Part shown: positions 5,554 through 38,440 of the stretch, piece after piece | Numbering within the stretch: the first letter of the stretch is position 1 | How the letters are laid out: each line of letters opens with the position of its first letter | NCBI RefSeq assembly: GCF_007860095.1 | Contig: NZ_SJPT01000001.1 | Location: 448,212-512,211 of the forward strand | DNA from: Novipirellula galeiformis | Lineage (GTDB): Bacteria > Planctomycetota > Planctomycetia > Pirellulales > Pirellulaceae | Direction: 5' to 3' | Length of the DNA: 64,000 bases | Program-made: the position numbers and the translations under genes | Notes under the pieces: generated by a model | The model's input: only the letters and a program-made list of their open reading frames with translations | Databases searched by the model: none | What the model was told of the DNA's origin: nothing

Positions 5554-5660
5554 GCACTGGCTCCACCCGCCCAGCCCCAACGCGGTGAGGGCCACGGTGC
5601 GGGATTGTCCGGCGTGGATCCGTGCATCACGGTGCCACGTCCACTTTCCCCAACGGACAT

Positions 5661-5700
5661 AAAAAAGCCCAGAGTGCTCGTCGCAACCCTGGGCTTTCTA
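5661..5700. terminator. Bidirectional terminator between MFS gene and thiC
   Basis: A 9-bp stem (AAAGCCCAG at 5664-5672, CTGGGCTTT at 5689-5697) with flanking A and T runs. It can end the plus-strand transporter transcript and, on the minus strand with its better T-run, the thiC transcript. Confidence 0.8.
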
Positions 5701-5737
5701 CGCTGACGGTTTTGGCCGGGAATCCCCGTTGATCAAA

Positions 5738-7879
<2,142 letters not shown>

Positions 7880-8371: not shown

Positions 8372-8476
8372 AGGAAATGTTCCTTTTGAGTGGAGTGATT
8401 GTGAAAAAAACGGGCGTGGGCATTTTCGCCCGCTTCATTTGGTTGATCGGTTGCGGGCGGGGACGCTCACGCACCT

Positions 8477-11596: not shown

Positions 11597-11598
11597 GT

Positions 11599-13053
11599 TT
11601 ATTCTTCTCCCATCAGTTCGGCCAGCAATTGCGATTTCAAAATGAAGCCGCCGCCGGTGATAATTCGTTCGCCGTCACGCAGTCCCTGACGAATCACGAC
11701 AGACTTGTCGTTCGCAGGACCGACTTGGACGTCGCGACGCAGGAATTGATCTTCGCCTTGCAGGACAAACACGAATTTTTTTCCTTCGTGTTCTTGTACC
11801 GCCGACGATGGGATGAGGATGGCAGCCTGCTGTTGCGACGTTGGTAATTCAATAGTGACAAACATGCCCGGCTTCAGATGATGATCGGTGTTATCCGCGA
11901 TCGCGCGCATGGAAATCGTTCGTGTGGCTTCGTCCATGATTTCGCCGGTGTAGAACACTTTCGCAGTGAAAGTCTGGTTGGGCAAAGCGTCGTTGCGAAG
12001 CGTGACCGTTTGGTCCTTGAACGAATCGAGTAGCGGCAGGTGTTCTTCGTAGATATTGGCGGTTACCCAAACGGTCGAAAGATCAGCGATGCTCAACAGC
12101 ATCACGTCGGGACGAACTTGCTCTCGTAAAACGACGTCCTTGCTCAACACCGTTCCGTCAAAAGGGGCCCGGATCGCGTAGTGTGATAGCGTTTCACCTT
12201 GTTTGGCGGGATCAATTTCGTTGATTTCCTTGGCATCAACGTTCAGGATTCTCAGGCTTGTCGCGGCGACCAAAGCTGTCGCTTCGGCTTCTCTGACTGC
12301 TTGGGAAGTCATCAAGGTGGATGTTTGCAGCTCGTGTTGAATCTGTTCGATTCGAGATTGAAAAGTGGCTTGATCCGCGTTGCGGGTGGAGGTCGCGGCC
12401 AGCAAGGTTTTGCCTGAAACGGCACCGGATTGCGAGACGGCTTCGAGTCGCAAAACATCGGCGGCGGACTTCAAATAAGCGGCGTACGAGGAGATCGCCC
12501 GTTCTCGGTAGCCACCCATCGGTCGATCGCGGAACTGCTTTTCGATCTCCGTGATATCCATGTTGCTGCTCAACGCTTGAAGTAGCTCGCTGGTGTTTTT
12601 TGCGATCTTCGATTGCAATTCGTTTTGCGTGTTGGCGAGTTCCAACTTCAAACGGGCCTGATAGAGTTGCAGCTTCGCCGCACCCACTTCACGGCTGTGG
12701 ATGATCGCCAGTAGATCGTCGGTTTTGACGGTTTGTCCTAGGCTGATCGAGACATCATCGACGGTCCCCTCGACCATCGAATAAATATGAGCGACGCGAT
12801 CTTGGTTGAGAGAAATCTTGCCCGTTAGTTGTAGGGTTTTCGTAAAGGGTTGCCGTTGCACCGACTCAATGCGAACGCCTGAAGCTTGCCATTGGTCTCT
12901 TGGTAACGTCACAATCTCGTCGGCCGTTTCTCCTCTTGGCAATTGTGCCGATGCGGCTGCTAAGGGGATCAATACTGCGGTGAGCAAAGCTGGAAACAGC
13001 CGTGCGTGTAGCAAGCGACGATGGAAACTCGTTTCTTGTTTGGATAAATTCAT
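11599..13053 (-). CDS. czcB: RND efflux periplasmic adaptor (CzcB/CusB family)
   Basis: A 484-residue membrane-fusion protein that joins the CzcA-like pump to an outer-membrane channel. It has a cytoplasmic start, a hydrophobic export segment (about residues 16-36), a lipoyl/barrel-sandwich half near residues 85-125 (VEGTVDDVSISLGQTVKTDDLL), a long helical hairpin (residues 125-290, with extra internal length), the second lipoyl half (YAIRAPFDGTVLSKDVVLREQV), a beta-barrel and a C-terminal domain ending with DGERIITGGGF. It has no His-rich metal-binding N-terminus of the CzcB type. It is immediately upstream of and co-oriented with czcA. Confidence 0.92.
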   Translation of the reverse strand: MNLSKQETSFHRRLLHARLFPALLTAVLIPLAAASAQLPRGETADEIVTLPRDQWQASGVRIESVQRQPFTKTLQLTGKISLNQDRVAHIYSMVEGTVDDVSISLGQTVKTDDLLAIIHSREVGAAKLQLYQARLKLELANTQNELQSKIAKNTSELLQALSSNMDITEIEKQFRDRPMGGYRERAISSYAAYLKSAADVLRLEAVSQSGAVSGKTLLAATSTRNADQATFQSRIEQIQHELQTSTLMTSQAVREAEATALVAATSLRILNVDAKEINEIDPAKQGETLSHYAIRAPFDGTVLSKDVVLREQVRPDVMLLSIADLSTVWVTANIYEEHLPLLDSFKDQTVTLRNDALPNQTFTAKVFYTGEIMDEATRTISMRAIADNTDHHLKPGMFVTIELPTSQQQAAILIPSSAVQEHEGKKFVFVLQGEDQFLRRDVQVGPANDKSVVIRQGLRDGERIITGGGFILKSQLLAELMGEE

Positions 13054-21974: not shown

Positions 21975-22706
21975 TTATTCCTGGGTTGCGGGGGCCTCCG
22001 CCTTTATCAGCTTTTGTATCAATGGCATGATGATTTGGCGGTACATGCCTTCGGCCATCGGATACTGTTTGATCTTTTCGAAGGTGTCAAACATCGTGGC
22101 CCCTTCGGATGAGGTCATCGGAACGCTTGATGTGCGTCCTTGGCTGTCGAGCAAAATTGCTTCGTATTCCCATTCGCCTAGCTCATTTTTCGTTCGCGAG
22201 ACGTCTTGGATTTGGGCCGAGTCCAAATCGATCTCGCCTGGGGCGGTTGCCGTTTTCGCACCGTATTGATCGCGATCGAGTCCCAGCGATTGAGCAATTT
22301 TGCTTGTCATCTCTTCGACCGATTCTTCGCTGGCAATGCGTTCGATCCGGGATAGGTTTTGTTCTAGTTCGTCCAACTTCTGAGCATCGTCGAGCGTTTC
22401 GCTGCGCGCGATTTGTTGGTCGATCGACTGTTGGATCTGCTCCGAAACGGCGCGTGAAGCCCGAGAGGGTTCGCGGGGCGATGGAGCTTCGGAAGCCATT
22501 TGCGGTGATCGAGGATCCGCCCCGGGGTGAGTGGTGCTGGAGCCGTTCGGGATTGGCAGGTACCAAAACAGAAGGCCTGCTGCGACGACGACGTGAAACA
22601 CAACGCTCACCGTGATCGCACGCGAGAAGCGACTGCGCGGACGCGTTCTAGTTTTGTGTGCGGTCGCAGGGGGCTTTTCGTGTTGCATGTCGGTGGGCTG
22701 GGTCAA
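21975..22706 (-). CDS. TonB/TolA-like membrane-anchored protein
   Basis: 243 residues. The start is TTG 22706, preceded by AGGA nine bases upstream; ATG 22688 is the alternative. A basic leader precedes one membrane helix (residues 30-50), SRAITVSVVFHVVVAAGLLF, which contains S34-x-x-x-H38. That SxxxH is the residue pair TonB and TolA use to couple with ExbBD or TolQR. A Pro/Ser-rich stretch and a charged coiled coil (residues 85-140) follow, then a C-terminal region of about 90 residues (EWEYEAILLDSQGR to PLIQKLIKAE) that is not the standard TonB C-terminal domain. It ends the block that includes exbB and exbD. The assignment rests on the motif and the neighbours. Confidence 0.65.
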   Translation of the reverse strand: MTQPTDMQHEKPPATAHKTRTRPRSRFSRAITVSVVFHVVVAAGLLFWYLPIPNGSSTTHPGADPRSPQMASEAPSPREPSRASRAVSEQIQQSIDQQIARSETLDDAQKLDELEQNLSRIERIASEESVEEMTSKIAQSLGLDRDQYGAKTATAPGEIDLDSAQIQDVSRTKNELGEWEYEAILLDSQGRTSSVPMTSSEGATMFDTFEKIKQYPMAEGMYRQIIMPLIQKLIKAEAPATQE

Positions 22707-22733
22707 CGAGTCAATTCCTGGGCGATGCCATTG

Positions 22734-23915
22734 TTATTGGGATGCGGACAAATTGAGATAAAGATTGACGTCGTGGGTGGTCCGTCCGCCGGCCAAAATA
22801 TCAATCTTTCCATCGCCGTTGAAATCGTCGCACCACAAATCTTCGCAAGCCATCATCGGATCGAGCGTGGTGCGAGTCCACTCGGTGCCGCTTGCATCGT
22901 TAGCGCGATAGATGAAGATGCCGGGACCTGGGACCGGGCCGTTCCCAGGGGTGCGGTACGCTGCGATCACTTCATCGCGGCCATCGCCATCTAAATCGGC
23001 ACACCAAACTGCATGGCCTTGGGAGAAGGTGTCGTCCAAGACGATGCGTTTCGGCTTGGGATCGGTCGCATGCGCACCGAGGTAAACGACCACTTGATTG
23101 CCGTGCATCGGTTCGATCGTGGCGATCATCGATAGGGATGCCGACAGGCGTCCTGTTTTGATTTCGCCGCTACCTTGTTGTGCGGGGGAATCGCCTTCGG
23201 CGCCGGAGGCAATTCGCGTCACTTGGAACCCCGCAGACTCTGATTTGCGAATCCAAGTGATGCCTTCGGCGCTCGCCGTTAACGTTTGCTCGGCCTCGCC
23301 GTCTCGGGAGGGCAAATGCCAATGGTTATGAGCACGATTCAGCGTGCCGTCGATGACGACCGGTTTCCATTGCCCCGATTTCGGATCGCGCGGGATGGGA
23401 AAGGCGAGCAGGCGAATGCCATTGCCATCGACCGCGTTTAACGGAGTGACGACCAATTGTGGGCTTCCTTGTCCGAGTACATCTGCCCAACGCATGCGGT
23501 GCGTCCATGGTTCGGAGGAGATGTTGAATACGTGCCAAGGATCTTTGAGCGTGTCGCCGCGACGGATCCAATGAATCGTACCGCCGTTTTTCGGCCAACC
23601 CGCCCCGAGGGCAAAATCGACGAGACCATCGCCGTCAATGTCATGCGCGGCAATGCAGACATTGTCTTTCGGGACGGCATCTTTGATCATCGAGTGCCGC
23701 GTCCACGTCGGATTCTCGTACCACACCACCTCGTTTTCGCTGATCGCGACAGCATCCATTTTTCCATCGTGGTTCACATCGGCTGCGGTGACGGCGTAAC
23801 ACACATTACCAATCTTGGCATCGAGTACCACTTTCTCGAATGCAGGCACCTCGGCGTGACTGAGCCTCGAAAACAACGTGACCATCGTGACTGCGAACAG
23901 GAGCCGAAGGATCAT
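22734..23915 (-). CDS. Secreted FG-GAP/VCBS repeat protein
   Basis: 393 residues with a signal peptide (residues 1-21, ending SHAE). It has several FG-GAP-like blades with calcium-binding DxNxDGxxD loops: DVNHDGKMDAV, DIDGDGLVDFALG, DLDGDGRDEVIAAY and DFNGDGKIDILAGG. These form an integrin-like beta-propeller. Single-domain proteins of this sort are abundant in planctomycetes, with functions from adhesion to glycan binding. It sits within the minus-strand ExbBD-containing block, 28 bases upstream of the TolA-like gene, and may be part of the same transcript. Confidence 0.85.
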   Translation of the reverse strand: MILRLLFAVTMVTLFSRLSHAEVPAFEKVVLDAKIGNVCYAVTAADVNHDGKMDAVAISENEVVWYENPTWTRHSMIKDAVPKDNVCIAAHDIDGDGLVDFALGAGWPKNGGTIHWIRRGDTLKDPWHVFNISSEPWTHRMRWADVLGQGSPQLVVTPLNAVDGNGIRLLAFPIPRDPKSGQWKPVVIDGTLNRAHNHWHLPSRDGEAEQTLTASAEGITWIRKSESAGFQVTRIASGAEGDSPAQQGSGEIKTGRLSASLSMIATIEPMHGNQVVVYLGAHATDPKPKRIVLDDTFSQGHAVWCADLDGDGRDEVIAAYRTPGNGPVPGPGIFIYRANDASGTEWTRTTLDPMMACEDLWCDDFNGDGKIDILAGGRTTHDVNLYLNLSASQ

Positions 23916-24223
23916 GGTTCACTCAGAGATTGCAGGAAAGAAGATGGCAGAGCGTTTGAAGTTGAACGCTTATCATAACCCGTATCCTAAGCCGCCGCGT
24001 AAGCAAGAGAAAATCACGCTTGGCTCGGGCCCGCGCCGGCACTGCGGGGCATGATTTCCACGGAAATCGAAAATCGGGCAACATCAAAAAGTAGAGCCGA
24101 GGAAGGAGGCAGGCCGCGAAGGTTCCTTTGCTCGTGCTCGGGGACTCTGGCATGATGACTTGCCCGAGTCCGCCTCGACTCGTTTGCTTCGCTGAGTTTC
24201 TACCGGGGTTGCTACCGGGGTTG
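23916..24223. other. Intergenic region
   Basis: 308 bases. Around 23975-24035 there is a diverged copy of the inverted-repeat wording seen at 2256-2319 (ATAACCCG...CCGCGTAAGC). Nothing else identified. Confidence 0.4.
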
Positions 24224-26980
24224 CTACTCGGCGGTGTCGTCATAGATCGGGAGGTGGCGGTAGTAAACCTCTAGATTCAACAGATTCATTGTCGTGACAT
24301 AAAGGCGTCCGCCGTGAGGACTCCAGCGATCCTCGACGGGCAGCATCGGGTGCCAACTGCCCGCCTTGGGCCCCTCTTTGACTTGGCTTTCGAGCAACAG
24401 GGGGTTGAGATGTTTGTTCCATTGCTCCCAATGCTCGCCGCCCATATGAAACATCACTTGGGTGGCGTAATACCAATAGTAACCGTCGCGTGATGGCTTG
24501 TTTCGCGTGCCCATTTCCGGCGGGGCTTCGAGCAGGTAGTCGGCTGCCGATTGCATCGCTTCGTTGTCGCGTTGCCACCCCGAGTACATCCGCATCAGCA
24601 TGCCCACCGCGGTCATCGTGTGGGTTGGATTGCGTCCGTGACGCTGCGTCGGAGTGTTCGAGGCAAAGGGGTTGTAACGATAACGATCGGGACGCGATTC
24701 GCTCTGTTGAGCAAAGTCCAACCAGCGGTCGATACCTTTGTAGACATCTTTTGGTATTTCCAATCCTGCGAGTTCGCCGCTCTTGAGCGCCATCATCATC
24801 CATCCTGATACGCTCGTATCGCTGCTGACCTGGGCGGCGTAGCGCCATCCGCCATATTTCGTATGTTGCGTATTGGCGATGTAGTTGAGCGAGGACTGGG
24901 CGGCCGCTTTTAACTCTTCGTCTTGGGTCATGCCGTACGCTTCACACATCGCCAAGGCCGCGATGCCATGGCTATAGAAGGCCACATTGCGATCGCTGAT
25001 CGGGTTCTCGCTGCGGTACAGGTCGCCGTTGGTTTTTTGATGCTGGATTAGAAACTCGATGCCCCGCTGGACGGTATCTGCATATTGATGTCGCTTGTGC
25101 GTGTAGCCTGCGCCTTGGAAGGAGAGTAGGCATAAACCGGTTGCGGCGGTGTCGCTTTGCAACAGTACATTTTCGCCATGTCCGGCAAGGGACCAACTGC
25201 CATCGTCTTTCTGAGTGCTCGCCAAGTAGGCGAGACCAAGTTCGATGGCTTCTTCGGTCGCCGGACCCACGAAGCCTGCGGGCGTCGGCGCCGCACCTCC
25301 CTGAGTTCGCATGACTCGTCGGTTAAAGGATTCAACGGCGGCAATCTTGCTGCCCACCGGTGTTGCGGGGCCACCGACTTCGAGTCGTTTTCGTGGTTGA
25401 TCCACAATGTCAAGCTCGCCAACCTCCGGCAGATCGTGGGTGGGGACAATCCCAGCGTACGAGTCGGGGCGATCGGCGAGCCCCGCAATCGATTCCTTCA
25501 TCATCACGTCCAAGCTGGGACCAAGTTCAGTTTCCATCGCGGAAATCGGCGTCGGAATGCTCGAGGAGGCTTCGCTTCGTTGGCTGCGGACTTCGCCGAT
25601 CTCCGCACGCTCGCTGACCGCATCATTAGGGGTGGCGTCCGTGGCGGCGGCCATCGTTGCCATCGCGCCCGGCGTCGTGGGAGCCCCCGCAGGAGTGAAC
25701 GCGCTGCGCTGGCCACGACTCGACCGCTCGGGACGCGCTTGCGGAGCACCGTCGGATTGGACATCCGGCGCCCCCATTAGCGAGGACAACTCGCGTCGCA
25801 ACACGTTGCTCGAGCTCGCCGAAGTGGGAGTGGACGACGGGGTGCTCATCGCATCGGAGGGGGTGGACTGCGAAAGCTGAGCTCCGGCGGTCGTTCCGCT
25901 ACGTTGATGCGAAACCTCCGCTGGGGATAACATCTGGTCGGCCGTTTGGCTGATCGATGCAACGGACACCGATTGCGGGGCCGGACTCGCCCCGGCCGGT
26001 GTGACGGAGGCTTGGCTTGTCGTGCGCGGGCGACTTTGACTCGTTAATCCCAACTCGCCGACCGTGGGCAGCGTTTGCGAGCGATTTCGTGTCGCCGCCG
26101 CCACCGCTTGGGATGGCGGAGTGAGGGGCATTTTCATTGGGTCGGGGGCGACACTTGGTTGGGGAACCGTCGAATGGCTGCTTCTTCGCGGGGTCGGTTT
26201 TGCCAAGGGCCGCTCGCTCGGATTCGCCTGAGAATCGCTCATCGATTCGCGATTAAGTTTAGGAACCTCCGGTTGAGAGCTTTTGGGGGAGCTTAATTTT
26301 TCACTCGCTTGCTCGCGGCGAGCAAGCTTTGCGGGCGAATCCGCAGGCTTCGGTTGAGCATGGGACGGTACCTGACGCTCCATCAAAAACGTTTGCGTCG
26401 GACGTGGTTTCGGCTCCTTCGGTTTGGGCATCTCCAACTGCGGAGCCGAATGTTCCACGGGTGGCAATTGCCGCATCTCTTCGGGAATCACTCGTGACGT
26501 GGTTTCCGTTTCCACCGGTTCCGACCAATCGGGGGTGACCGCCTCTTCCTTGGGAGTTTGAAACAAATACTCGGGAACCGTTTTGCGAATTGGTGAACGC
26601 TCGGGTTTAACTCCCGCAACCGATTCAGGGAAAAACTGGCTGAAGATGACGACGTGGACGGCCAAGATCAGCAGCATCAAGTGCAGGAAGACGCTGAACA
26701 GAAAACCGATTTGAATCGATTTTTGCACGTAATGGGAAACCAAACCTCGTAGCGCCAGCGACATCCCCAACGCGATCAAGGGGACGGCGATCGCGTACGT
26801 CGAGGCATTGAAAAGCCAGCGTGGATCATCAAAGCGAAGCCGCGTCACGATCAAGTACAGCACCACCGATGACAGCGCCACTAACCAAACGTCCAACGGC
26901 CACATTGCATCCGTGGAACCGGCAGCGCGGTTCGGCGGAGGCACGAAGGTGTGCTTCGGTGGCGGTGAGGGACGGTTCAC
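24224..26980 (-). CDS. Membrane protein with SxxxH anchor and terpene-cyclase-like toroid
   Basis: 918 residues. Three N-terminal helices (about 32-46, 57-77, 92-112); the third contains S96-x-x-x-H100 (FSVFLH), the TonB/TolA coupling motif. Residues 120-560 are Pro/Ser/Thr/Ala-rich and look disordered, like a long periplasmic spacer. Residues 570-900 resemble the prenyltransferase/squalene-oxidase alpha/alpha-toroid repeats: LGLAYLASTQKDDGSW, GLCLLSFQGAGY, YSHGIAALAMCEAYG, YGGWRYAAQ and TAVGMLMRMY. The catalytic DxDD of cyclases is not seen, so a structural or binding use of the fold is likelier. It is downstream of exbD in the same direction. Confidence 0.75.
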   Translation of the reverse strand: MNRPSPPPKHTFVPPPNRAAGSTDAMWPLDVWLVALSSVVLYLIVTRLRFDDPRWLFNASTYAIAVPLIALGMSLALRGLVSHYVQKSIQIGFLFSVFLHLMLLILAVHVVIFSQFFPESVAGVKPERSPIRKTVPEYLFQTPKEEAVTPDWSEPVETETTSRVIPEEMRQLPPVEHSAPQLEMPKPKEPKPRPTQTFLMERQVPSHAQPKPADSPAKLARREQASEKLSSPKSSQPEVPKLNRESMSDSQANPSERPLAKPTPRRSSHSTVPQPSVAPDPMKMPLTPPSQAVAAATRNRSQTLPTVGELGLTSQSRPRTTSQASVTPAGASPAPQSVSVASISQTADQMLSPAEVSHQRSGTTAGAQLSQSTPSDAMSTPSSTPTSASSSNVLRRELSSLMGAPDVQSDGAPQARPERSSRGQRSAFTPAGAPTTPGAMATMAAATDATPNDAVSERAEIGEVRSQRSEASSSIPTPISAMETELGPSLDVMMKESIAGLADRPDSYAGIVPTHDLPEVGELDIVDQPRKRLEVGGPATPVGSKIAAVESFNRRVMRTQGGAAPTPAGFVGPATEEAIELGLAYLASTQKDDGSWSLAGHGENVLLQSDTAATGLCLLSFQGAGYTHKRHQYADTVQRGIEFLIQHQKTNGDLYRSENPISDRNVAFYSHGIAALAMCEAYGMTQDEELKAAAQSSLNYIANTQHTKYGGWRYAAQVSSDTSVSGWMMMALKSGELAGLEIPKDVYKGIDRWLDFAQQSESRPDRYRYNPFASNTPTQRHGRNPTHTMTAVGMLMRMYSGWQRDNEAMQSAADYLLEAPPEMGTRNKPSRDGYYWYYATQVMFHMGGEHWEQWNKHLNPLLLESQVKEGPKAGSWHPMLPVEDRWSPHGGRLYVTTMNLLNLEVYYRHLPIYDDTAE

Positions 26981-27129
26981 GTTGATTCAAGAGTCCGAGA
27001 GGGGAATGATTTCAAAACCTAAGCACGCCGGTTTGTGATCGGCGTGCTGGATCGGGTGTCGAGGCGATCCTGTTTGCGATGATTTCGTAAGTTGTTTGCG
27101 GTTCTGTGAGCCCACGGCTCTGGATTTTG

Positions 27130-27570
27130 CTACTGCTCAGGATTTTGCTTTTGCTCGGGCCCATCCGTCGTGGTGACGGAATAATCGCTGATCCCGGTTC
27201 GATTGCAAGCGTCCATGACGCTGACGACCGGTTGAAACGCGGTCGCGCGATCGGCGCGGATGATGACGGATTGGCTGATAGGATTATTAGCCACCGCGTT
27301 CCGAAGTAGCTCGAGTAACGCATCGATCGTGGATTCTTTTCCTCCGACGTAAACCGTGCCCGCGGCATTGATGTCGATCACGATTTCACGCGGTTTACTC
27401 GTCATCGGCACCGCACTGGTCGCGGTCGGCAACGCGATGTCGATGCGACGTTCCTGTTCTTCAAACTCGCTGGTCACGAGAAAGAAAATCAGCAGCAGAA
27501 AAACCACGTCAATCAATGGCGTTAGGCTGAGCGTTCCCGCGACAGTCGATTTTTTGATTTCAACAGCCAT
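27130..27570 (-). CDS. exbD: ExbD/TolR-family biopolymer transport protein
   Basis: 146 residues. A short cytoplasmic tail is followed by one helix LTPLIDVVFLLLIFFLVTS that carries the conserved Asp (D21) which conducts protons with the ExbB pore. A periplasmic ExbD/TolR domain follows (RRIDIALPTATSA, then EIVIDINAAGTVYVGGKE, and VIIRADRATAFQPVVSVMDACNRTGI). It is encoded 2 bases after exbB, so the two are translated together. Confidence 0.93.
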   Translation of the reverse strand: MAVEIKKSTVAGTLSLTPLIDVVFLLLIFFLVTSEFEEQERRIDIALPTATSAVPMTSKPREIVIDINAAGTVYVGGKESTIDALLELLRNAVANNPISQSVIIRADRATAFQPVVSVMDACNRTGISDYSVTTTDGPEQKQNPEQ

Positions 27571-27572
27571 GG

Positions 27573-28529
27573 TTAACCCGGCTTCGCCTCACTACGCATT
27601 TTTTGAGGAACCGGTGGTGCCGGAGGGCGTGCCGGTTCATGATTCGATTTCACGCGATCCATGCTGTGCATCGTTCCCTGGTTGTCGAGTCTGCGGCGAC
27701 CCACCAAGGGCGCCATCCGAGGAGCCAATTCGAAGGCGAGCTCTTCGATTTGATTGAACAGTTTGGCTAAGCGGTTTTCCAAGTATTGAGCAAACATCGC
27801 TGCGGGAATCGCCACGATTAACCCCGCAAGGGTCGTTACCAATGCCGTGTAAATGCCTTCGGAAAGTTGTTCGCTACGGCTGCGGTCCGCCGTCAATGTG
27901 GTCGATTCATGAAACGCGACAATCATGCCCCACACCGTTCCGAGCAATCCCATCAAGGGAGTTGCCGCGGCCGCTAAGTTCAACCAACGAATCGGAGCGG
28001 CGTGTCCATCGGCTTCGCGTTGGATCGTTTCTTTCGCGGCATTTTCGATCTCGCCAATGGGTTGCCCGGTGCGCAACAACATCGCGCGGATGGCGGTCGC
28101 CGCGGGCGAGGGGAAATCGTTGCAGGTATGAAAGGCGATGTTGGGATTGAAGTTCTCCGCCGGCTCGGAGATCGCCCGCAATTCCATCACCAAGGTACGC
28201 GGAATGATTTTGTTTTCTCGCAAGGTCAAAATGCGTTCGGCCGCGAGCGCCACGACCAACAAACTCATCAATCCAATCGGGATCATGAAGCGCCCGCCAC
28301 GGCTGATCAACGACAACAGATCGATCGGCGAAGGCTCATCCACGCTCGCTTCCGCCGCGGCGGGGGAATCGTTCAGCACCGATTGAATCTCGGACGTGTC
28401 AATGCGAATGTCGCTCGGGTCCTGGCTGCGCACGACCAACGCGTCGAGCGTGAGCGTCACGAACATCACCACAACCACGGCCAACGCCATGCGGTGTAAA
28501 CGATTCGGATTGTGATTCAGTGCATTCAC
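27573..28529 (-). CDS. exbB: MotA/TolQ/ExbB proton-channel protein
   Basis: 318 residues. An N-terminal signal/anchor (about 13-34) and a spacer precede the usual three-helix core: FMIPIGLMSLLVVALAAERI, then AAATPLMGLLGTVWGMIVAF and YTALVTTLAGLIVAIPAAM. The TPLMGLLGTVWGM sequence is the family signature. With ExbD it forms the ion channel that uses proton motive force to work a periplasmic partner. It starts at GTG 28529; that G is the last base of the TAG stop of the upstream TPR gene, so translation is probably coupled. Confidence 0.93.
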   Translation of the reverse strand: MNALNHNPNRLHRMALAVVVVMFVTLTLDALVVRSQDPSDIRIDTSEIQSVLNDSPAAAEASVDEPSPIDLLSLISRGGRFMIPIGLMSLLVVALAAERILTLRENKIIPRTLVMELRAISEPAENFNPNIAFHTCNDFPSPAATAIRAMLLRTGQPIGEIENAAKETIQREADGHAAPIRWLNLAAAATPLMGLLGTVWGMIVAFHESTTLTADRSRSEQLSEGIYTALVTTLAGLIVAIPAAMFAQYLENRLAKLFNQIEELAFELAPRMAPLVGRRRLDNQGTMHSMDRVKSNHEPARPPAPPVPQKMRSEAKPG

Positions 28530-31500
28530 TATTTTTTCAAAGCCTCTAATTGCGTCTTTGCTTTTTCAGCCAATTCGTGCTGCGGATGCTTGGCGATGAC
28601 GTATTGGAAAAAACGGACAGCGAAATCAAACGATTTTTGCTTTGCCGCGGGGGTTTGAGCTTGCTGGATCAGTAACTCGCTACAACGGCCAGCCTCGAAT
28701 CCGCTTTTTGCTTGCCAATTCTTAATCGGCTCGGGGGCTTGTTCGGCACCGAATCCGTACATCACTTTTTGGAATTCGGGGATCGCCAGATCGAGGCGTC
28801 GATTGGCAAAATGGATCTCTCCGATCATGAACCGCGCCCGGGCCGCCACTTCATTGCGATAGTTGTCGGCGACCTCCCCAAACATTTGCAGTGCCTTGTC
28901 GTTATTGCCGGTTTGCTGGTAAGCGAAGCCGGTTTCGTAAAAGACCTGTGCTAAATAGTGCGTCGCTGGGAACCGCTCACGAAGTTCGTCGTACCACGCG
29001 ATCGCGTCATCCCATTTCTTCAGCTGTGCCGCACTTTGGCCGCCGTGCAGCAGCACAATTTCTCGAGCTTGGCGATCGGCTGGATCTCGCAACGATTTGG
29101 CGGTCTCCTCTTTGTCTTGGATTTGTTTTCGTGCGGCGGCGTAGCCTGCCAATGCGGCTTCGTGTTTGCCTTCGTTGAAACGACATTCGCCGACCATCAT
29201 CAAGGCGTCGAAGGCGAGCGTCCCATCGGGGTGCTTTTCCGCCTGTTGCTGAAACGCTTTCTCAGCTTCATCAAATCTCGCTTCTTTGAATCGCGACCAC
29301 CCAAGGCGATAGAATGCCTTTTCGGCAAGCTTGGGATCGGTGGTCTGCTCGGCCGAGGTAAGGAAGTACTTGGCCGCCTCGTCCCAGTTTTTGTTCTCGT
29401 AGGCATGTTGGCCGACGAAATAAGCCGCTTCACCGCTCAAGGGGGACGTCGGCGATCTTGCGATCAACTTGGTGAATGTCTCGACCGCGGCGTCCTGCTT
29501 TTCCGATTCGCGATACGACCAACCCAGTTCGTACAAGACCTTGTCAAAATCAGGGTAGTTGGGAACTTCCGCGACCAGTCGTTCCAGATGAGTGGCCGCC
29601 TTGGCGGGATGTTTTTCCTTTTGGTCGATCAACGCAAGTTCGTAAAGCACGTGGCCCAGATTCAAGCCGCTCGGTTTCAATTCGAGGAATGCCTCAAGGT
29701 CCTTTCGCGCCGCTTCGAGCTCACCTAGGTTTCGCTCGGAGATCCCGCGGGCGAGTAACGCTTCGGAGCGGATCGCGTGGGTGGCGTAATCCTTCAAAAG
29801 CGTATCGAGTGAAGTCATGGCTTCTTTGTGCTTGCCATGCTCCATCAACAAGCGAGCGCGACCGTAATACGCGTACGGCATCAAACCGGGGTCGGCCCCG
29901 GAGGCCACGATCTCGTCGTAGAGTCGGCTGGCTTCGGCGACGTCCTTTTGCGTGCTCGCCAATTGAGCCAGTTTGAATCTCGCTTGATCCGCCATCCGGC
30001 TCTTCGAGTCCTGGTCGATGATCGTGGTCCATGCGGTTTGAGCCGCCTTGGTATCGCCCGCTGCAAATAACGCTTGCCCGGCCATCAACAACGCTTCGGA
30101 GGCTCGCGGCCAACTCGGATCGGCGTCGTGGCTGGCTTGAAATGCTTTGGCTGAGTCGGAGGGGTTTTCGGTCATCAAGTACGCTTGGCCCAGCAACAGT
30201 TGAGCTTCGGCTTGTTGAGCTTTTTCGGGTAAAGGTGCGGATTGCTCCTTGAACAGCGAGAGGGTTTCCTGAGCCCGGTTCGCTGCGTTGAGCGCCGTCG
30301 CAGCACGCAAAATCCAAAGCGGACGTTGTGAGGTATCCCCGGCGTCGGACTTTTTAACCAACGCTTTGAACTTGTCCGCCGCAGTGCCAGTGTCGCCCAA
30401 AATGAAGTGGCTTTCCGCTTCCACGAACAACACGTCCAGAGTCAGCGTGTCGTCGGGGAATTTTTTTAGAAATTCGCTTGCCAGTTCAATCGCACGCTTG
30501 GGCTCATTGATCTGTAGCGCCGAGAAGGCTGCGTTGTAAAGGGCTCGCGGAGCCAATTCGTCGTCGGGTGCGTCGCGATAAGCTTGCTCAAACGCGGCGA
30601 GCGACTCCTTCATGGTGTCCGGGGTCATGGATAACGCTTCGCCCAAATCGAGCTTCAACGTCGCAACAAATTTTCCTTCGGCACCCCGTTCGAGTTGGCC
30701 ACGGATGACTTCGAGTGCTTTTGCCGAATCCCCTTTGCCCAGATGAATTCGAGCCAGCCAATGGGCGGCTTCGGTGGACGCGGTAGGATTTTTTTGCTCC
30801 AACACACGCTGGAACCGTTTCGCCGCTTCCTCGATGTCGCCACTGCGGTACGTGCTTTGTGCCGAAGCCAGGGTTGCCGATGCGGTGTAAGAAGAATCTG
30901 GATAATCCTTCAGCAGTTGTTCGTATTTCTTTGCCGCTTCGCCCGGTTGGTTCGCCTGCACGAGTGCAAACGCTTGCCGGAATAGTGCATAAGAGAGATC
31001 GTCTTTGTTTTCGGTCGACTTCATCGCTGCGTCGAACGACTCGATCGCTTGCTTGTACTCTTTCTTTAGAATGGCGGTATCGCCGATGCGGAGGTGGACA
31101 TCGGTAACTAAATCGCTTTTCTCGCAACTGCTTAGCAGTTGGCGAAACGATGCGACGGCGTTGTCGTATTGGTCGAGCTCTTCGTAGGCAATGCCTCTCG
31201 CGTACAGTGCGTCACATCGCAGCGGAGATTCTTTGGCCGTCGGCAACGCGAGAAGTTGGTCGTAATTGGCAATCGCTTTCTTCGCGTCGCCGAGTCCGTA
31301 GGCTGCCTCGCCGCTGTAAAACAACGCTCGATCAAGAAAGGAGCTTTGCGGGAATTCTTTACGCAACGTTTCAAACGTGGCGATCGATTCGCGTAGCCGA
31401 TCTTGATCGCGGTTCGGGGCGTCCCCGGCGGAGGAGTAGAGACACCATCCCTGATTGACAAGACTCTCCTCTCGCAACTCGTAATCCGAGTCCTGCAACG

Positions 31501-31861
31501 CTTGGGCAAAGGATTTCGAAGCGGCCGCGTAATCAGGGGCCTCCTGTTGCATATAGCAAACCCCCAAGAAGTGAGCAGCCTTGGATGCCATCGGGTCATC
31601 CGGGTACTCCTTCAAAAAGGCGTTCCAGCTCTCAATCGCCAGCCCGATCGCACCATTGGTTTGAAAGTTTGCCGCATCCGCGTAAGCCGCGATCGACTCT
31701 TCCGAGGATTCTTTGGCAGCGGCAATGAGGTCAAAGCATGGGGAGCTCAGAAAGGCGATGCCAGCAAGCAAACCAAGCATCGGTTGCCGGAAAAAATGCA
31801 CGAAATCAATCGCGAGACGATTGATTCGGAACAGGTTGAAGACGACCTGTGTATGGAACAC
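28529..31861 (-). CDS. Giant periplasmic TPR protein
   Basis: Up to 1110 residues; an in-frame ATG at 31780 directly precedes a signal-like segment (MLGLLAGIAFLSSPCF) and may be the true start, giving 1083 residues. Almost the whole mature protein is tetratricopeptide repeats, about 20 or more, many with the YbgF/CpoB-like wording (A..FLEEYPDSPLAxxAxYxLGxxYY type, e.g. YPDDPMASKAAHFLGVCYM). In Tol and Exb systems such proteins organise envelope and peptidoglycan partners; here it leads the ExbBD operon. The partner is not known. Confidence 0.88.
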   Translation of the reverse strand: MFHTQVVFNLFRINRLAIDFVHFFRQPMLGLLAGIAFLSSPCFDLIAAAKESSEESIAAYADAANFQTNGAIGLAIESWNAFLKEYPDDPMASKAAHFLGVCYMQQEAPDYAAASKSFAQALQDSDYELREESLVNQGWCLYSSAGDAPNRDQDRLRESIATFETLRKEFPQSSFLDRALFYSGEAAYGLGDAKKAIANYDQLLALPTAKESPLRCDALYARGIAYEELDQYDNAVASFRQLLSSCEKSDLVTDVHLRIGDTAILKKEYKQAIESFDAAMKSTENKDDLSYALFRQAFALVQANQPGEAAKKYEQLLKDYPDSSYTASATLASAQSTYRSGDIEEAAKRFQRVLEQKNPTASTEAAHWLARIHLGKGDSAKALEVIRGQLERGAEGKFVATLKLDLGEALSMTPDTMKESLAAFEQAYRDAPDDELAPRALYNAAFSALQINEPKRAIELASEFLKKFPDDTLTLDVLFVEAESHFILGDTGTAADKFKALVKKSDAGDTSQRPLWILRAATALNAANRAQETLSLFKEQSAPLPEKAQQAEAQLLLGQAYLMTENPSDSAKAFQASHDADPSWPRASEALLMAGQALFAAGDTKAAQTAWTTIIDQDSKSRMADQARFKLAQLASTQKDVAEASRLYDEIVASGADPGLMPYAYYGRARLLMEHGKHKEAMTSLDTLLKDYATHAIRSEALLARGISERNLGELEAARKDLEAFLELKPSGLNLGHVLYELALIDQKEKHPAKAATHLERLVAEVPNYPDFDKVLYELGWSYRESEKQDAAVETFTKLIARSPTSPLSGEAAYFVGQHAYENKNWDEAAKYFLTSAEQTTDPKLAEKAFYRLGWSRFKEARFDEAEKAFQQQAEKHPDGTLAFDALMMVGECRFNEGKHEAALAGYAAARKQIQDKEETAKSLRDPADRQAREIVLLHGGQSAAQLKKWDDAIAWYDELRERFPATHYLAQVFYETGFAYQQTGNNDKALQMFGEVADNYRNEVAARARFMIGEIHFANRRLDLAIPEFQKVMYGFGAEQAPEPIKNWQAKSGFEAGRCSELLIQQAQTPAAKQKSFDFAVRFFQYVIAKHPQHELAEKAKTQLEALKK

Positions 31862-33338: not shown

Positions 33339-33634
33339 ACGCTCTCGTTTCGTGAGCCGACGTCACCACGCCGGTGCAACCGAAACGCCACTCATCACGC
33401 CCGGAGACTTCAAATCGGAGGATGAACCACGCTTGCAAACGGTCACTGGCATGCCCCTCCCTCGGGCCGTGTTATGCCTCGGCATCGGTTGCATGCGTTT
33501 CTCAGCCTTGCGTTTCCGCAGCCTGGCGTTTCTGCAGATCCACGCACGCACGGGGGGGATCCTAGCTATACTCGGCGGCAGCCGTGAGGGGAGAAGTCTT
33601 CGCGATTCGTTACCGGTTTAGAGAGAGGGTGGGA

Positions 33635-36600
33635 ATGTTAGCGATACGCTATCAAGTGTTGGTCGCAGTGATGTCAGCCGCAGTGATGTCAGCCGCAGTG
33701 ATGTCAGCCGCCGAAATACCAGCCGCTGAGACGCCCGCCACCGGGACGCCCGCCGCCAAGTCGCCGATGGCCAAGTCGCCGATGGTCAGTGAAGACACCG
33801 TGATCCGCTGGAAGACTCAGCGGCTTTCGAGTGATTTCTTCAGTGAGGGGGCGACCGCGGGTGACTTTAATCGCGATGGCGTGACCGATGTGGCGTCGGG
33901 ACCGTTTTGGTACGCAGGCCCCGACTTCAAAACCGAGCATCGCTTTTACGCCCAAGACGTCTTCGATCCGCACGGCTATTCCAACCACTTCTTCTCGTAT
34001 ACCGACGACTTCAATCAAGACGGTTGGGATGACATTTTAGTGTTCGGCTTCCCCGGCAACGATGCCTCGTGGTTTGAGAACCCCAAAACCGCTGATCGTT
34101 TCTGGCCACGACATCAAGTGCTCGACCAGGTCGATAATGAATCGCCCACGTATGTCGATATCAACGGCGATGGCAAACGAGACATCGTTTGCAGCCAAGA
34201 AGGCTATTTCGGGTTCGCCGAAGTCAATCCAAATGCTCCTGAAGCACCCTGGGCGTTTCGTCGTATTTCCACCCAGAGCACCGGCGGCAAGTTCACTCAT
34301 GGCCTTGGGGTGGGCGACATTGACGGGGACGGTCGGATGGACCTGATCGAAAAAAATGGATGGTGGCAACAACCCGAATCATGGGTGGGAGACCCGATTT
34401 GGAAGCAGCATCTCTATCCGTTTTCCCCTGGCACCGGCGGAGCACAGATGTTTGCGTGGGATGTCGATGGCGATGGCGATAACGACGTCATCACATCGCT
34501 CAACGCGCATGGATTTGGCTTGCGGTGGTACGAACAAACAAAGATCGATGGTGCGATTGCATTCAAGCCTCACACGATTATGGGACAAACGCCAGCCGAA
34601 AATGCTTACGGTGTCTGTTTCTCGCAAGTCCACGCCATCGAACGGGTGGATATGAACGGCGACGGCTTGGATGACATTTTGACGGGCAAGCGTTATTGGG
34701 CGCATGGGCCGCGCGGGGACGTGAACGCCGCCGATCCGGCAGTCGTCTATTGGTTCGAATTGTCACGCACTCAAGAGGATGCCAATGAAACCTCCGCATC
34801 CAAGGTGCGTTGGATTCCTCATTTGATCGACGATGATTCGGGCGTGGGAACGGAGGTCAATTTCGCGGACCTCGATGGTGATGGAAACGTCGATGTCTTT
34901 GTTGGTAACAAGAAAGGGACGTTCGTTCATTTGCAACATCGATTGGCCGCGGAGAAACCGGATGCGTCCAAGCATGTGCCGCGGTCGCGTGATGTCGGCG
35001 CTCGCCCTAGCACCGGTGGGTTGCCTGAGAACGAAGGACTCTCTCCTCAGCAGGCTGCCGATGCGATCACGGTCCCCGAAGGCTTTCGAGTTCAATTGGC
35101 CGCCGGCGAGCCGATGGTTCATCAGCCGATTGCGATGTCCTTGGATGATCGGGGCCGATTGTGGATCGCCGAAGCTCACACCTATCCCACGCGTGCACCG
35201 CAAGGCCAAGGGCAAGACAAAATCATCATTCTCGAAGATCAGAATCATGATGGCGTGTTCGATTCACGCAAGGTGTTCATCGAAGGACTCAACTTGGTGA
35301 GTGGGATGGAGGTCGGGTTCGGAGGGGTTTGGATTGGTGCGGCGCCGTACTTGATGTTTATCCCCGACCGGGATGGGGATGATGTCCCCGATGGCGAACC
35401 CGAAATCTTGTTGGATGGATTCGGTTTCCAGGACACTCACGAAACGCTCAACTCCTTTATCTGGGGGCCCGATGGATGGTTGTATGGTTGCCACGGGGTG
35501 TTCACGCATTCCAACGTTGGGCCGCCGGGAACTGCCGACGAAGACCGCACGCCAATCAATGCGGGCGTGTGGCGTTACCATCCGATCAAGCACCGCTTTG
35601 AAGTCTTTGCTCATGGAACCAGCAATCCGTGGGGGCTCGATTTCAACCAATACGGCCAATCGTTCATCACCGCGTGCGTGATTCCCCATATGTATCACAT
35701 CATCCAAGGCGGTCGGTACCAACGCCAAGCGGGACAGCATTTTGATCCCTATGTTTACGACGACCTTAAAACGATCGCCGATCACGCTCACTACGTTGGC
35801 AACCTTGGCGACCATGCTTGGTGGAAAGGCCGTAACGAGGCCGCTGCTCACCAGGATACAAACGCTGCCGGCGGAGGCCATGCGCATTGTGGAGGGATGA
35901 TTTATTTGGGCGACAATTGGCCCACGCAGTATCACGGTTCCATGTTCATGGCAAATATCCACGGCAACCGGATCAACAACGACTTGTTTCGGCGTAGAGG
36001 AAGTGGGTATGTCGCATCGCATGGGGACGATTTTCTGTTTGCAAACGACCGCTGGTTTCGTGCCATCAATATGAAGTACGGCCCCGACGGCAGTGTCTAT
36101 CTGATCGATTGGTATGACAAAAATGCTTGCCATCGCACCGATCGTGAAGTTTGGGATCGCACGAATGGACGTGTCTTTCGGATCCGCTTTGGCAGCACCG
36201 AGTCCAAGGCCGTTGATTTGTCGAGCGAGAGCAATGAGCGTCTGGTGGCGTACCACGAACATGAAAACGAGTGGTATCCACGAACGGCCAGACGCATTTT
36301 GCAGTCGCGTTGTTTGAGTTCGGATTCGCAAACGCCACTTGCTTCGAACGAAAAACAGGCGATCGCGGCTCAGCTTGAACAATTGGCCTTTGGCTCTCAT
36401 CGAGTGTCGGTTCGGTTGCGGGCGATTTGGACGATGCACGCTTGTGGTTTATTGACGACTTCGCATCGCGAACGGTTGCTCGAGGATCACGGCCACAAGT
36501 CCGAGTACTTGCGGGCGTGGGCGATTCAGCTTGAGATGGAAGATTCGACTCCAGAGGAGCGGGCGACCTCGTTGCTGCCGAAGTTCATCGAGATGGCGGC

Positions 36601-38440
36601 GACCGAGACTTCTCCCCACGTGCGACTCGCGTTGGCAAGTGGATTGCAGCGGATGCCGCTCCGAGACCGCTGGGAAATCCTTGCTCGCTTGGTTCGCCAT
36701 AGCAGCGATGCGGACGATGCCAACTTGCCGTTGCTGATTTGGTACGCGGCTCAGCCGTTAGTCGTTGTTGACACTCCGCGAGCGCTGACGCTTGCCCAAG
36801 AATCTCGTCTACCGCGAGTGCGACAATACATTTATCGCCGCGCCGCGGCAGACCCCGAGTCGATTGATCACCTGCTCGTTACGCTGGGCAGCGTCGATGA
36901 CGCCGAGTCGCAGAAGGTCATGCTGGCCGAGATTGTCGCCGCGATCGCCAATCAAACTCGTTTGAAAATGCCGCCGCAATGGATCGCGGTCTACGAAAAA
37001 TTGGCGGCCAGTGACGATCCCCTGGTCCGCGCCAACGCTCAGCTGATTACGGTCAAATTCGGCGACGCTTCGATCTTTCCAAAATTGCGTGAGCTCGTCG
37101 CCGATGATCGAGTCGATGCGACATTGCGGCGGGGGGCGCTTACGGCGCTGGTGGGCGGAAAAGACAAGCAGCTTTTTCCTGTTTTGATTGAATTGCTAAC
37201 CGATGAGGTGCTGCGGCGTGATGCGATTCAGGCGTTAGCAAACTTCAGCGACCCGGCGGGCGCCGACACGCTGATTCGTCACTACGATCAATTCTCTGCT
37301 GGCGAAAAATCCGATGCGCTGGCGACGCTCGCGTCGCGGGCACCCTTTGCCAAAAAATTGCTGGCCGCGGTCTCCGGCAACAAGCTTCCGCGTCGCGACC
37401 TGTCTGCGTTCACGATTCGTCAGATTCAATCGCTCGGCGACCCGGCGTTGACCCAGCGGGTGAACGAGGTTTGGGGCAGCGTGCGAACGACCTCTGCAGA
37501 AAAGCAAGAGCGAATCGCTTCGCTCAAAGCCCAATTCACCGCCGACGTGCTCGCCAAAGCGGATCTTGCTCACGGACGCGCTCTGTACGATGGGACCTGT
37601 GGCAAATGCCATCGATTGTTTGGTAGCGGCGGTGATATCGGTCCCGATATCACGGGATCGAATCGAGGAGACATTGAGTACTCGTTGCAAAACATCATCG
37701 ATCCCAATGCGTTGATCGGACGTGACTATCAACCGACTCAGGTGTTAACCGACGATGGTCGTGTTTTGATCGGATTGTTAAAAGAGGAAACGCAAACGGC
37801 TTTGGTCATTCAAACCGTCAACGAAAAAGTGGTGATCGACAAGCAAGCGATCGGCGTGCGAAGCTTGGTCGCCACGTCAATGATGCCCGAGGGCCAATTG
37901 GACTCCATGACGCCCGACCAAGTGCGGGATTTGATTGCCTATTTGGCAAGTCCAATACAGGTGCCGTTGCCGGGCGAGGTGCCGCGGATCCATCCCGAAA
38001 CGAACTCGGTTTCGGGGGCCATTGAAGCGGAGTCGGTCTCCTCGTTCTCAGCGACCCGCGGGCAGGTGCGGCCGCAAAACATGCGGAACTTTCCCGACGG
38101 TCAGTGGAGCGGGGATGCTCATTTATGGTGGACCGATGCCAAGCCTGGGGACAAGTTGTCTCTTTCGATCTCGGTCGCAACACCGGGCACCCGCGAAGTG
38201 TTTGTGGCAATGACCAAAGCTCACGATTACGGCACGTTCGAGTATTCGATTAACGGCGTGAAAGTTTTGGCGCCGATCGACTTGTTTAACAAGGGGGGCG
38301 TAATCGCAACGGGCCCGGTATCGCTCGGGACACACGAACTCAAGCAAGGAGTCAACGTGATCGAGGTGGAGGTGACGGGAGCTCATCCCGCCGCCACCAA
38401 GCGATTTATGTTCGGGCTCGATTACATCTACCTAAAGTAG
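33635..38440 (+). CDS. Giant secreted PVC-type haem-binding protein with VCBS and HEAT regions
   Basis: 1601 residues from ATG 33635, chosen for its GAGGGTGGGA ribosome site; the frame is open to 33584. Order: an unusual signal region with VMSAA repeats; a VCBS/FG-GAP propeller (about 45-440, DFNRDGVTDVASG, DINGDGKRDI, DIDGDGRMDLI, DVDGDGDNDVI); the planctomycete-type membrane-bound dehydrogenase domain (about 465-900, a PQQ-like propeller, FRVQLAAGEPMVHQPIAM); HEAT-like helices (900-1300); a CxxCH domain with haem site C1322-G-K-C-H1326; and a C-terminal sandwich (about 1460-1600). Such proteins are thought to oxidise sugars or similar compounds in the periplasm; the substrate is unknown. 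Confidence 0.9.
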   Translation: MLAIRYQVLVAVMSAAVMSAAVMSAAEIPAAETPATGTPAAKSPMAKSPMVSEDTVIRWKTQRLSSDFFSEGATAGDFNRDGVTDVASGPFWYAGPDFKTEHRFYAQDVFDPHGYSNHFFSYTDDFNQDGWDDILVFGFPGNDASWFENPKTADRFWPRHQVLDQVDNESPTYVDINGDGKRDIVCSQEGYFGFAEVNPNAPEAPWAFRRISTQSTGGKFTHGLGVGDIDGDGRMDLIEKNGWWQQPESWVGDPIWKQHLYPFSPGTGGAQMFAWDVDGDGDNDVITSLNAHGFGLRWYEQTKIDGAIAFKPHTIMGQTPAENAYGVCFSQVHAIERVDMNGDGLDDILTGKRYWAHGPRGDVNAADPAVVYWFELSRTQEDANETSASKVRWIPHLIDDDSGVGTEVNFADLDGDGNVDVFVGNKKGTFVHLQHRLAAEKPDASKHVPRSRDVGARPSTGGLPENEGLSPQQAADAITVPEGFRVQLAAGEPMVHQPIAMSLDDRGRLWIAEAHTYPTRAPQGQGQDKIIILEDQNHDGVFDSRKVFIEGLNLVSGMEVGFGGVWIGAAPYLMFIPDRDGDDVPDGEPEILLDGFGFQDTHETLNSFIWGPDGWLYGCHGVFTHSNVGPPGTADEDRTPINAGVWRYHPIKHRFEVFAHGTSNPWGLDFNQYGQSFITACVIPHMYHIIQGGRYQRQAGQHFDPYVYDDLKTIADHAHYVGNLGDHAWWKGRNEAAAHQDTNAAGGGHAHCGGMIYLGDNWPTQYHGSMFMANIHGNRINNDLFRRRGSGYVASHGDDFLFANDRWFRAINMKYGPDGSVYLIDWYDKNACHRTDREVWDRTNGRVFRIRFGSTESKAVDLSSESNERLVAYHEHENEWYPRTARRILQSRCLSSDSQTPLASNEKQAIAAQLEQLAFGSHRVSVRLRAIWTMHACGLLTTSHRERLLEDHGHKSEYLRAWAIQLEMEDSTPEERATSLLPKFIEMAATETSPHVRLALASGLQRMPLRDRWEILARLVRHSSDADDANLPLLIWYAAQPLVVVDTPRALTLAQESRLPRVRQYIYRRAAADPESIDHLLVTLGSVDDAESQKVMLAEIVAAIANQTRLKMPPQWIAVYEKLAASDDPLVRANAQLITVKFGDASIFPKLRELVADDRVDATLRRGALTALVGGKDKQLFPVLIELLTDEVLRRDAIQALANFSDPAGADTLIRHYDQFSAGEKSDALATLASRAPFAKKLLAAVSGNKLPRRDLSAFTIRQIQSLGDPALTQRVNEVWGSVRTTSAEKQERIASLKAQFTADVLAKADLAHGRALYDGTCGKCHRLFGSGGDIGPDITGSNRGDIEYSLQNIIDPNALIGRDYQPTQVLTDDGRVLIGLLKEETQTALVIQTVNEKVVIDKQAIGVRSLVATSMMPEGQLDSMTPDQVRDLIAYLASPIQVPLPGEVPRIHPETNSVSGAIEAESVSSFSATRGQVRPQNMRNFPDGQWSGDAHLWWTDAKPGDKLSLSISVATPGTREVFVAMTKAHDYGTFEYSINGVKVLAPIDLFNKGGVIATGPVSLGTHELKQGVNVIEVEVTGAHPAATKRFMFGLDYIYLK

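Follow-up and report, generated by a model that had tools for sequence, protein, structure and literature searches.

This report concerns a gene cluster of the planctomycete Novipirellula galeiformis (Pirellulaceae). The window is the whole stretch of DNA analysed, 64,000 nucleotides of contig NZ_SJPT01000001.1 (assembly GCF_007860095.1, positions 448,212 to 512,211), and the coordinates below are positions in this window. Four genes on its minus strand encode a tetratricopeptide repeat (TPR) protein, an ExbB/TolQ-like protein, an ExbD/TolR-like protein, and a protein of 918 amino acid residues (the 918-aa protein), which is proposed here to be a force transducer with a toroid at its C-terminus. 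The genes and the parts of the 918-aa protein are as follows.

28529-31861, minus: TPR protein, 1110 aa, first gene of the conserved unit (Pfam TPR_6, 4.7e-61)
27573-28529, minus: ExbB/TolQ-like motor subunit, 318 aa (Pfam PF01618, MotA_ExbB, 2.2e-25)
27130-27570, minus: ExbD/TolR-like motor subunit, 146 aa (Pfam PF02472, ExbD, 8.8e-29)
24224-26980, minus: proposed force transducer, 918 aa, with three hydrophobic helices, a Pro-rich linker, and a C-terminal toroid
26636-26710, minus: 918-aa protein, hydrophobic helix 3 (approximately residues 91-115; contains S96 and H100)
25277-26635, minus: periplasmic linker of the 918-aa protein, 453 aa, 13.5% Pro
24227-25300, minus: C-terminal alpha/alpha toroid of the 918-aa protein (residues 561-918 modelled), predicted squalene-hopene-cyclase-like fold

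The TPR stop codon and the exbB start codon have base 28529 in common, and the coupling of exbB and exbD to a giant TPR gene by a shared base, described in an initial annotation of this DNA, was confirmed. The gap between exbB and exbD is 2 bases, and the 918-aa gene follows exbD after 149 bases. A promoter and terminator scan gave no surplus over shuffled sequences. The initial annotation also placed a TonB/TolA-like SxxxH pair at S96-H100 of the 918-aa protein and another at S34-H38 of a 243-aa protein encoded further downstream. Both pairs were found at these positions, each within a hydrophobic helix (helices in all proteins were called by hydropathy only). The 918-aa protein had been described as having one N-terminal anchor helix, but three hydrophobic helices are visible by eye, and the Ser/His pair lies in the third.

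Is the gene order conserved in related bacteria? Orthologous loci with at least 6.5 kb of upstream DNA numbered 49. In 38 of them, the TPR, ExbB, ExbD, and toroid genes occur in this order on one strand, and in 48 an ExbD gene lies within 1.5 kb upstream of the toroid gene. ExbD is found just upstream of the orthologue in Rhodopirellula baltica, Rubripirellula obstinata, Stieleria tagensis, Roseimaritima sediminicola, and Blastopirellula marina. The four-gene order was also found in another family of the order (G314, locus L205) and in a genome from outside the class (G423, L208), and an ExbB-ExbD-toroid order was found in G212 (L232). The synteny that the initial annotation had proposed to check for six genes is real for the 918-aa gene, but the conserved unit consists of four genes (TPR, ExbB, ExbD, and the 918-aa gene). 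In L142, L148, L153, L156, L158, L159, and L170, the ExbD-toroid pair is intact and no ExbB or TPR gene was recognised upstream.

The best NCBIfam models for the ExbB and ExbD proteins are TolQ and TolR, with scores well below the cut-offs. The ExbB of the window retains the equivalents of Thr145, Thr178, Ser28, and Pro187 of TolQ, and has Val in place of Trp32. Residues were counted in 67 of 88 toroid loci, the other 21 having no ExbB to count. Each Thr of the channel pair (Thr145 and Thr178 in TolQ) is present in 67/67, the Pro187 equivalent in 66/67, and the Ser of the first transmembrane helix (TM1) in 65/67. The helix Asp of ExbD (LIDVVF) is present in the window and in four relatives aligned with the TolR and ExbD of Escherichia coli. 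With these key residues retained, ExbB and ExbD look, as far as their sequences tell, like an energised, working motor. The TPR protein has a signal-peptide-like N-terminus by eye, and its repeats resemble those of CpoB/YbgF and BamD (tol_pal_ybgF, 3.3e-84 summed over the repeats). The genome has 12 ExbB-family matches and 10 ExbD matches; several ExbBD systems are encoded per cell. Further ExbD pairs lie amid DUF4159, TPR, or PQQ-propeller genes in the loci L197, L199, L200, and L204 of this genome. The ExbB of the window has an extra N-terminal hydrophobic segment (28400-28529) before the usual first helix, signal-sequence-like by eye.

The Ser/His pair of the 918-aa protein was followed in 88 orthologue rows. 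Toroid open reading frames (ORFs) longer than 780 aa on the expected strand came from 74 of 80 loci, three that were cut N-terminally were left out, and 16 rows from further genomes and the window were added; exact duplicates alone were removed, so that near relatives are counted repeatedly. The His100 column has H in 81 rows and N in 7, with no other residue. The Ser96 column has S in 68, C in 16, and G in 4. The pair is intact in 62 of the 88 orthologues. Among the 59 proteins of up to 1300 aa, 58 have the S-H pair and one has C-H; all the remaining altered proteins are longer than 1300 aa. The conservation of SxxxH in orthologues, another check named in the initial annotation, is borne out for the 918-aa gene. 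According to the available text of a cryo-electron microscopy study (PMC12215075), Ser16 and His20 of TonB touch Ser34 and Trp38 of ExbB, and the conserved His is essential for Ton and Tol activity. The equivalent of this ExbB Ser34 is the TM1 Ser present in 65/67 sequences. Asn has been reported as a full substitute for His20 of TonB, as the title of Swayne and Postle (2011) states. A change from His100 to Asn as the sole change is what a TonB-type contact predicts, and the natural swap parallels, in evolution, what the classical TonB mutant showed. The Leu and the last Ser of the TonB SHLS motif are not kept, the 918-aa protein having Ala107 and Val111 there. No covariation of the S/C/G and H/N changes of the anchor with the TM1 serine of ExbB was seen. 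The linker length ranges from 360 to 1813 aa among the 88 orthologues. The toroid proteins of L130, L132, and L138 are 2183-2272 aa long, with Ala/Pro-rich linkers of 1,724-1,813 residues, and have Gly or Cys at the Ser96 position.

The C-terminal domain of the 918-aa protein, about 350 residues long, is predicted to be a squalene-cyclase-like toroid. An AlphaFold2 model made with 54 sequences had a mean predicted local distance difference test score (pLDDT) of 92.6 and a predicted template modelling score (pTM) of 0.91. With VIA-align, it matched the structure 2sqc_A with a Z score of 26.3 over 296 residues at 3.5 A, and Foldseek and VIA-align together grouped it with squalene-hopene cyclases and other alpha/alpha barrels. 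The sequence profile of the toroid also matched squalene-hopene cyclase (7.9e-6). The catalytic motif of class II terpene cyclases is DxDD. This motif is absent in 53 of the 54 aligned rows, and a catalytic terpene cyclase was rejected. No thioester pattern of the alpha-2-macroglobulin (A2M) type was found in the 54 rows.

The toroid family is not limited to this operon. All of the 149 genomes of the same family have some toroid match, and 126 of them match the toroid domain of the window at E values up to 1e-100 (hand count). In the phylum, the toroid profile matches 252/294 genomes at E values up to 1e-20, members without a membrane helix included. SxxxH lies in a hydrophobic helix in 60 of 73 toroid ORFs from the host genome and a phylum sample, or in 59 of 72 genes, as one G428 gene was counted twice (L206 and L246); the phylum loci were taken from the best profile matches and lean to well-conserved members. 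The other 13 rows comprise four with no hydrophobic helix (one of them, L219, is cut by the locus edge), eight scored as having a transmembrane helix without the motif, and one with AxxxH (L243). By eye, the eight are four signal-peptide-like segments, three low-scoring relatives with a helix, and one AxxxH missed by the filter (L232). As a background, SxxxH was found in 14 of 1,789 hydrophobic segments of the other proteins in the fetched loci (14/1,655 distinct segments) and in 6 of 433 single-helix proteins. Within the toroid and 243-aa families, 57/64 members with a single helix have it, or 56/63 distinct ones. SxxxH occurs in the helices of these two families more often than by chance.

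In the host genome, toroid proteins with a membrane helix number five besides the 918-aa protein (L190-L194), and all of these carry SxxxH in that helix. Two more toroid ORFs (L195 and L209) lack such a helix, and another toroid match lies near C1:348 kb. One of the five belongs to a second operon (L190, G000:C6:278000-294000, 6308-12143, minus), in which a TPR gene (693 aa) is followed by the ExbB and ExbD genes and a toroid gene (632 aa, SVALH). In other lineages, genes for SurA/PPIC-like chaperones lie near toroid genes in 11 of 45 loci by BLAST. Of the seven loci scanned with Pfam, L238, L231, L228, and L215 are over the cut-off and L225, L226, and L244 are weaker; L224, L235, L242, and L249 have BLAST matches. 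Toroid paralogues beside SurA/PPIC-like genes may have other ligands. In some of the SurA/PPIC-like loci, the toroid genes stand in tandem, and a TRCF (mfd) match is present in 12 of the 45 toroid loci.

It was also assessed whether the genome has a Ton system. At E values up to 0.1, Pfam TonB_C (PF03544) has no match in the 918-aa or the 243-aa protein, in agreement with the initial annotation, which saw no standard TonB C-terminal domain in either. TonB_C is missing from the whole genome of this organism as well. The initial annotation had noted no TonB-dependent receptor near the operon, and this extends to the genome, since the receptor marker Plug (PF07715) has 0 matches in it. A canonical Ton system in this genome was rejected on these grounds. 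In the phylum, TonB_C is found in 201 and ExbD in 286 of 294 genomes. Among the 21 sampled genomes of the host's class, three have TonB_C and all 21 have both ExbD and the toroid. ExbD and the toroid occur without TonB_C in 76 of the 294 phylum genomes. Mutual exclusion of the toroid and TonB in the phylum was rejected: 174 genomes have both, 78 the toroid only, 27 TonB only, and 15 neither (Fisher p 0.59). In the available text of a 2012 survey (Speth et al., PMC3422733), TonB is reported from only four planctomycete genomes of the time, and its absence is interpreted as consistent with a lack of coupling between the cytoplasmic and outer membranes. The toroid family reopens this point, which was drawn from the missing TonB. 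A class that mostly lacks TonB_C but has ExbD possesses motors without a known transducer, and the toroid family is a candidate for the missing part.

It is likely that the TPR protein, ExbB, ExbD, and the 918-aa protein together form a trans-envelope machine that is driven by protons, as in the Ton and Tol systems. I infer the docking and the function of the 918-aa protein as follows. Its third helix would dock on the rim of the ExbB pentamer, with S96 and H100 against the TM1 serine of ExbB. Proton flow via ExbB and ExbD would drive the periplasm-spanning linker, and force would be applied to an outer-membrane or periplasmic ligand gripped by the toroid, perhaps jointly with the TPR protein. 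The machine most likely serves the upkeep or assembly of the outer membrane in a Tol-like manner rather than nutrient import, because many genomes of the family have an orthologue-like match and no TonB-dependent receptor is detectable in the genome. The CpoB/BamD-like TPR repeats, the wide presence in the family, and the SurA/PPIC-like neighbours of toroid genes elsewhere are hints of an outer-membrane role.

Several observations weigh against the proposed machine. ExbB or ExbD lies near the toroid gene in just 4 of 40 further loci, and most paralogues have no motor beside them. Even among the 49 orthologous loci, 11 have no TPR and ExbB genes beside the toroid gene, whether these lie elsewhere or escaped recognition; ExbD is still present in 10 of the 11 and missing from one. 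The sole toroid matches of 23 of the 149 family genomes, several of which are incomplete, are weaker ones. Trp38 of ExbB, which the Ser/His pair touches besides the serine, is replaced by Val in 57 of 67 sequences. Since this Trp is not kept, the contact of the pair must differ in detail from the TonB type. Finally, a profile of the toroid anchors alone has no TolA or TonB match in the PDB at E values up to 10, and the tolA_full model touches one of 59 toroid anchors (E 0.18); these 59 were selected for SxxxH, and their S and H are invariant by construction. Judged from their own profile, the toroid anchors showed no homology to TolA or TonB.

Could the 918-aa protein instead be a membrane-anchored enzyme, with a toroid like that of terpene cyclases, epimerases, or glycosidases, while ExbBD has another task and the Ser/His pair a structural role? 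The toroid is indeed highly conserved (63% mean column identity in the 54 rows), Trp, Tyr, Asp, and Arg are invariant at many of its positions, the closest solved folds are enzymes, and toroid relatives without a membrane helix exist. The lack of DxDD speaks against such an enzyme, which would also leave unexplained the phylum-wide SxxxH in the anchored members, Asn as the sole change of His100, and the ExbD gene upstream in 48 of 49 loci. I regard it as quite unlikely, although the toroid could have an enzyme activity alongside motor coupling. A role of the toroid protein as a passive tether or scaffold, linking the inner membrane to the outer layers and binding ExbBD for assembly only, with no proton-driven movement, is very unlikely. 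A linker of 360-1813 aa would suit a tether, but the kept channel Thr pair of ExbB and helix Asp of ExbD make the motor look energised, and the kept His corresponds to the residue described as essential for Ton and Tol activity in the available text of PMC12215075. The proton-driven machine is compatible with one further proposal, in which the 243-aa protein is a dedicated second effector of the same motor. This protein and its neighbour are encoded downstream of the 918-aa gene.

22734-23915, minus: FG-GAP/beta-propeller protein (Pfam), between the 918-aa toroid gene and the 243-aa gene
21975-22706, minus: 243-aa protein, an accessory neighbour (TolA-like helix with S34 and H38; C-terminal domain conserved)

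The helix of the 243-aa protein resembles that of TolA, as the initial annotation had judged: the PDB matches of the 243-aa profile at up to 0.001 consist of three TolA sequences (8e-5 to 1.7e-4), its best matches, whose Ser and His are in register. The tolA_full model matches 10 of 22 members of the family at E values up to 10, the best being 6.1e-5. S34 and H38 are invariant in the 22 aligned rows, which are 21-43% identical to the window, and in a wider set S and H are each kept in 29/31. One divergent relative (L267) has no SxxxH helix by the hydropathy filter. The Leu of TonB SHLS is kept as Leu45, and Tyr49 is at the last Ser. The matches of the 243-aa profile in 199 genomes include, via its helix, a TonB_C protein encoded by G164 as well as toroid proteins encoded by G165 and G265. 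Thus, the toroid, TonB_C, and TolA-like helices are linked by sequence. The G018 orthologue of the 918-aa gene also gave a match (3.5e-4), which was not reproduced at 0.01 in a local repeat. Among the first 25 of the 28 families listed, none covers the C-terminal domain of the 243-aa protein, and no sequence match to the TolA C-terminal domain lies over it. A single-sequence model of this domain was poor (pLDDT 63.6), and fold searches with it gave no usable match. No relatives were found in viral contigs.

The TolA-like helix would suit a second effector, and so would the position of the gene close to the toroid operon in this genome and in G087 and that of a 243-aa relative inside a second exbB-exbD-toroid operon in G098 and G059 (L091/L092; toroids of 644/648 aa). 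However, G087 is the only one of 100 labelled toroid loci with the 243-aa gene beside the conserved unit, and the gene is present in just 36 of the 149 family genomes. Neither genus-mate genome (G013, G077) gave a match; at the orthologous site of G013, an esterase gene directly follows the toroid and FG-GAP genes, and the 243-aa gene is absent. In 18 of 20 loci of 243-aa relatives, the 11.5-18 kb covered contain neither a motor gene (ExbB or ExbD) nor a toroid gene. A dedicated second effector of this motor is therefore unlikely. Because of its absence in the genus-mates and the lack of a motor or toroid gene nearby in most of its loci, the 243-aa gene is an accessory neighbour and not a core part of the unit. 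The protein is probably another transducer that uses one of the ExbBD motors of the cell, which may or may not be the one described here. The initial annotation had seen two anchors of one operon and an ExbBD machine with novel periplasmic effectors; for the 918-aa protein, a TonB/TolA-like anchor and a new periplasmic effector beside an ExbBD motor are supported, but the arrangement with the 243-aa protein as a second effector is not conserved. The FG-GAP gene, 308 bases from the 918-aa gene, adjoins the toroid gene solely in the genus-mate G013 among the labelled loci.

How does the toroid protein compare with known systems? The locus resembles Tol-Pal in its TolQ/TolR-like motor, its CpoB/YbgF-like TPR gene, and a docking helix, that of the 243-aa protein most of all. 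It differs in that no sequence match to the TolA C-terminal domain was seen, the 918-aa protein has three hydrophobic helices, and no tolB or pal lies in the operon, whose neighbours are an epimerase gene and an esterase gene (both assigned by reading) and the FG-GAP gene (Pfam); TolB elsewhere in the genome was not searched. With TonB, the 918-aa protein shares the S-x3-H near the helix start, a Pro-rich periplasmic linker, and ExbB/ExbD partners. The toroid paralogues are often encoded away from a motor, as is said of tonB in the available text of Williams-Jones et al. (2025, PMC12204202). In contrast to TonB, the 918-aa protein has no TonB_C, the genome has no Plug receptor, and the linker is far longer, the longest observed domain II of TonB being 245 residues according to the same text. 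The fold of the toroid is common to squalene-hopene cyclases, while here it is joined to a docking helix and a linker.

The closest parallel concerns force transducers tipped with a von Willebrand factor A (vWA) domain, which Williams-Jones et al. propose for the Planctomycetes-Verrucomicrobia-Chlamydiae (PVC) group and others. As far as the available text of that paper goes, these have a Ser/His docking helix, a Pro-rich linker, and a non-TonB C-terminal domain, like the 918-aa protein, and those of the PVC group often lie behind TPR-tolQ-tolR-tolR genes, just as TPR and motor genes lie upstream here. They differ in the vWA tip and the pair of tolR genes, the 918-aa operon having an alpha/alpha toroid tip and one ExbD. 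A toroid transducer is not mentioned in that text (supplements excluded), and none was found in the literature by title and the start of the abstract, a search with most subscription papers outside it. The toroid-tipped transducer proposed here adds to a recently recognised kind, and the toroid tip itself is new. As a second non-TonB tip after vWA, it makes the motor-docking helix look like an exchangeable module. A broader proposal has about an even chance of being right: that Planctomycetota have phylum-wide, multi-copy, proton-driven toroid-tipped transducers, replacing TonB or beside it, in which the motor, through linkers as long as about 1,800 residues, pulls or works a barrel that binds a ligand or is catalytic, across a periplasm of unusual width, to maintain or build the outer membrane.

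The host genome also encodes a 692-aa protein (L259, G000:C5:108000-120000, 4893-6971, plus) with an SxxxH helix (PAAWLVSAIAHAVIL) at residue 401. Its C-terminal stretch was read as vWA-like (DSSKSM), Pfam giving no match at 0.01. Elsewhere in the window, a large 1618-aa protein with a CxxCH motif by eye is encoded on the plus strand (33584-38440), and a 316-aa piece of a relative of it lies at the edge of the genus-mate locus L061.

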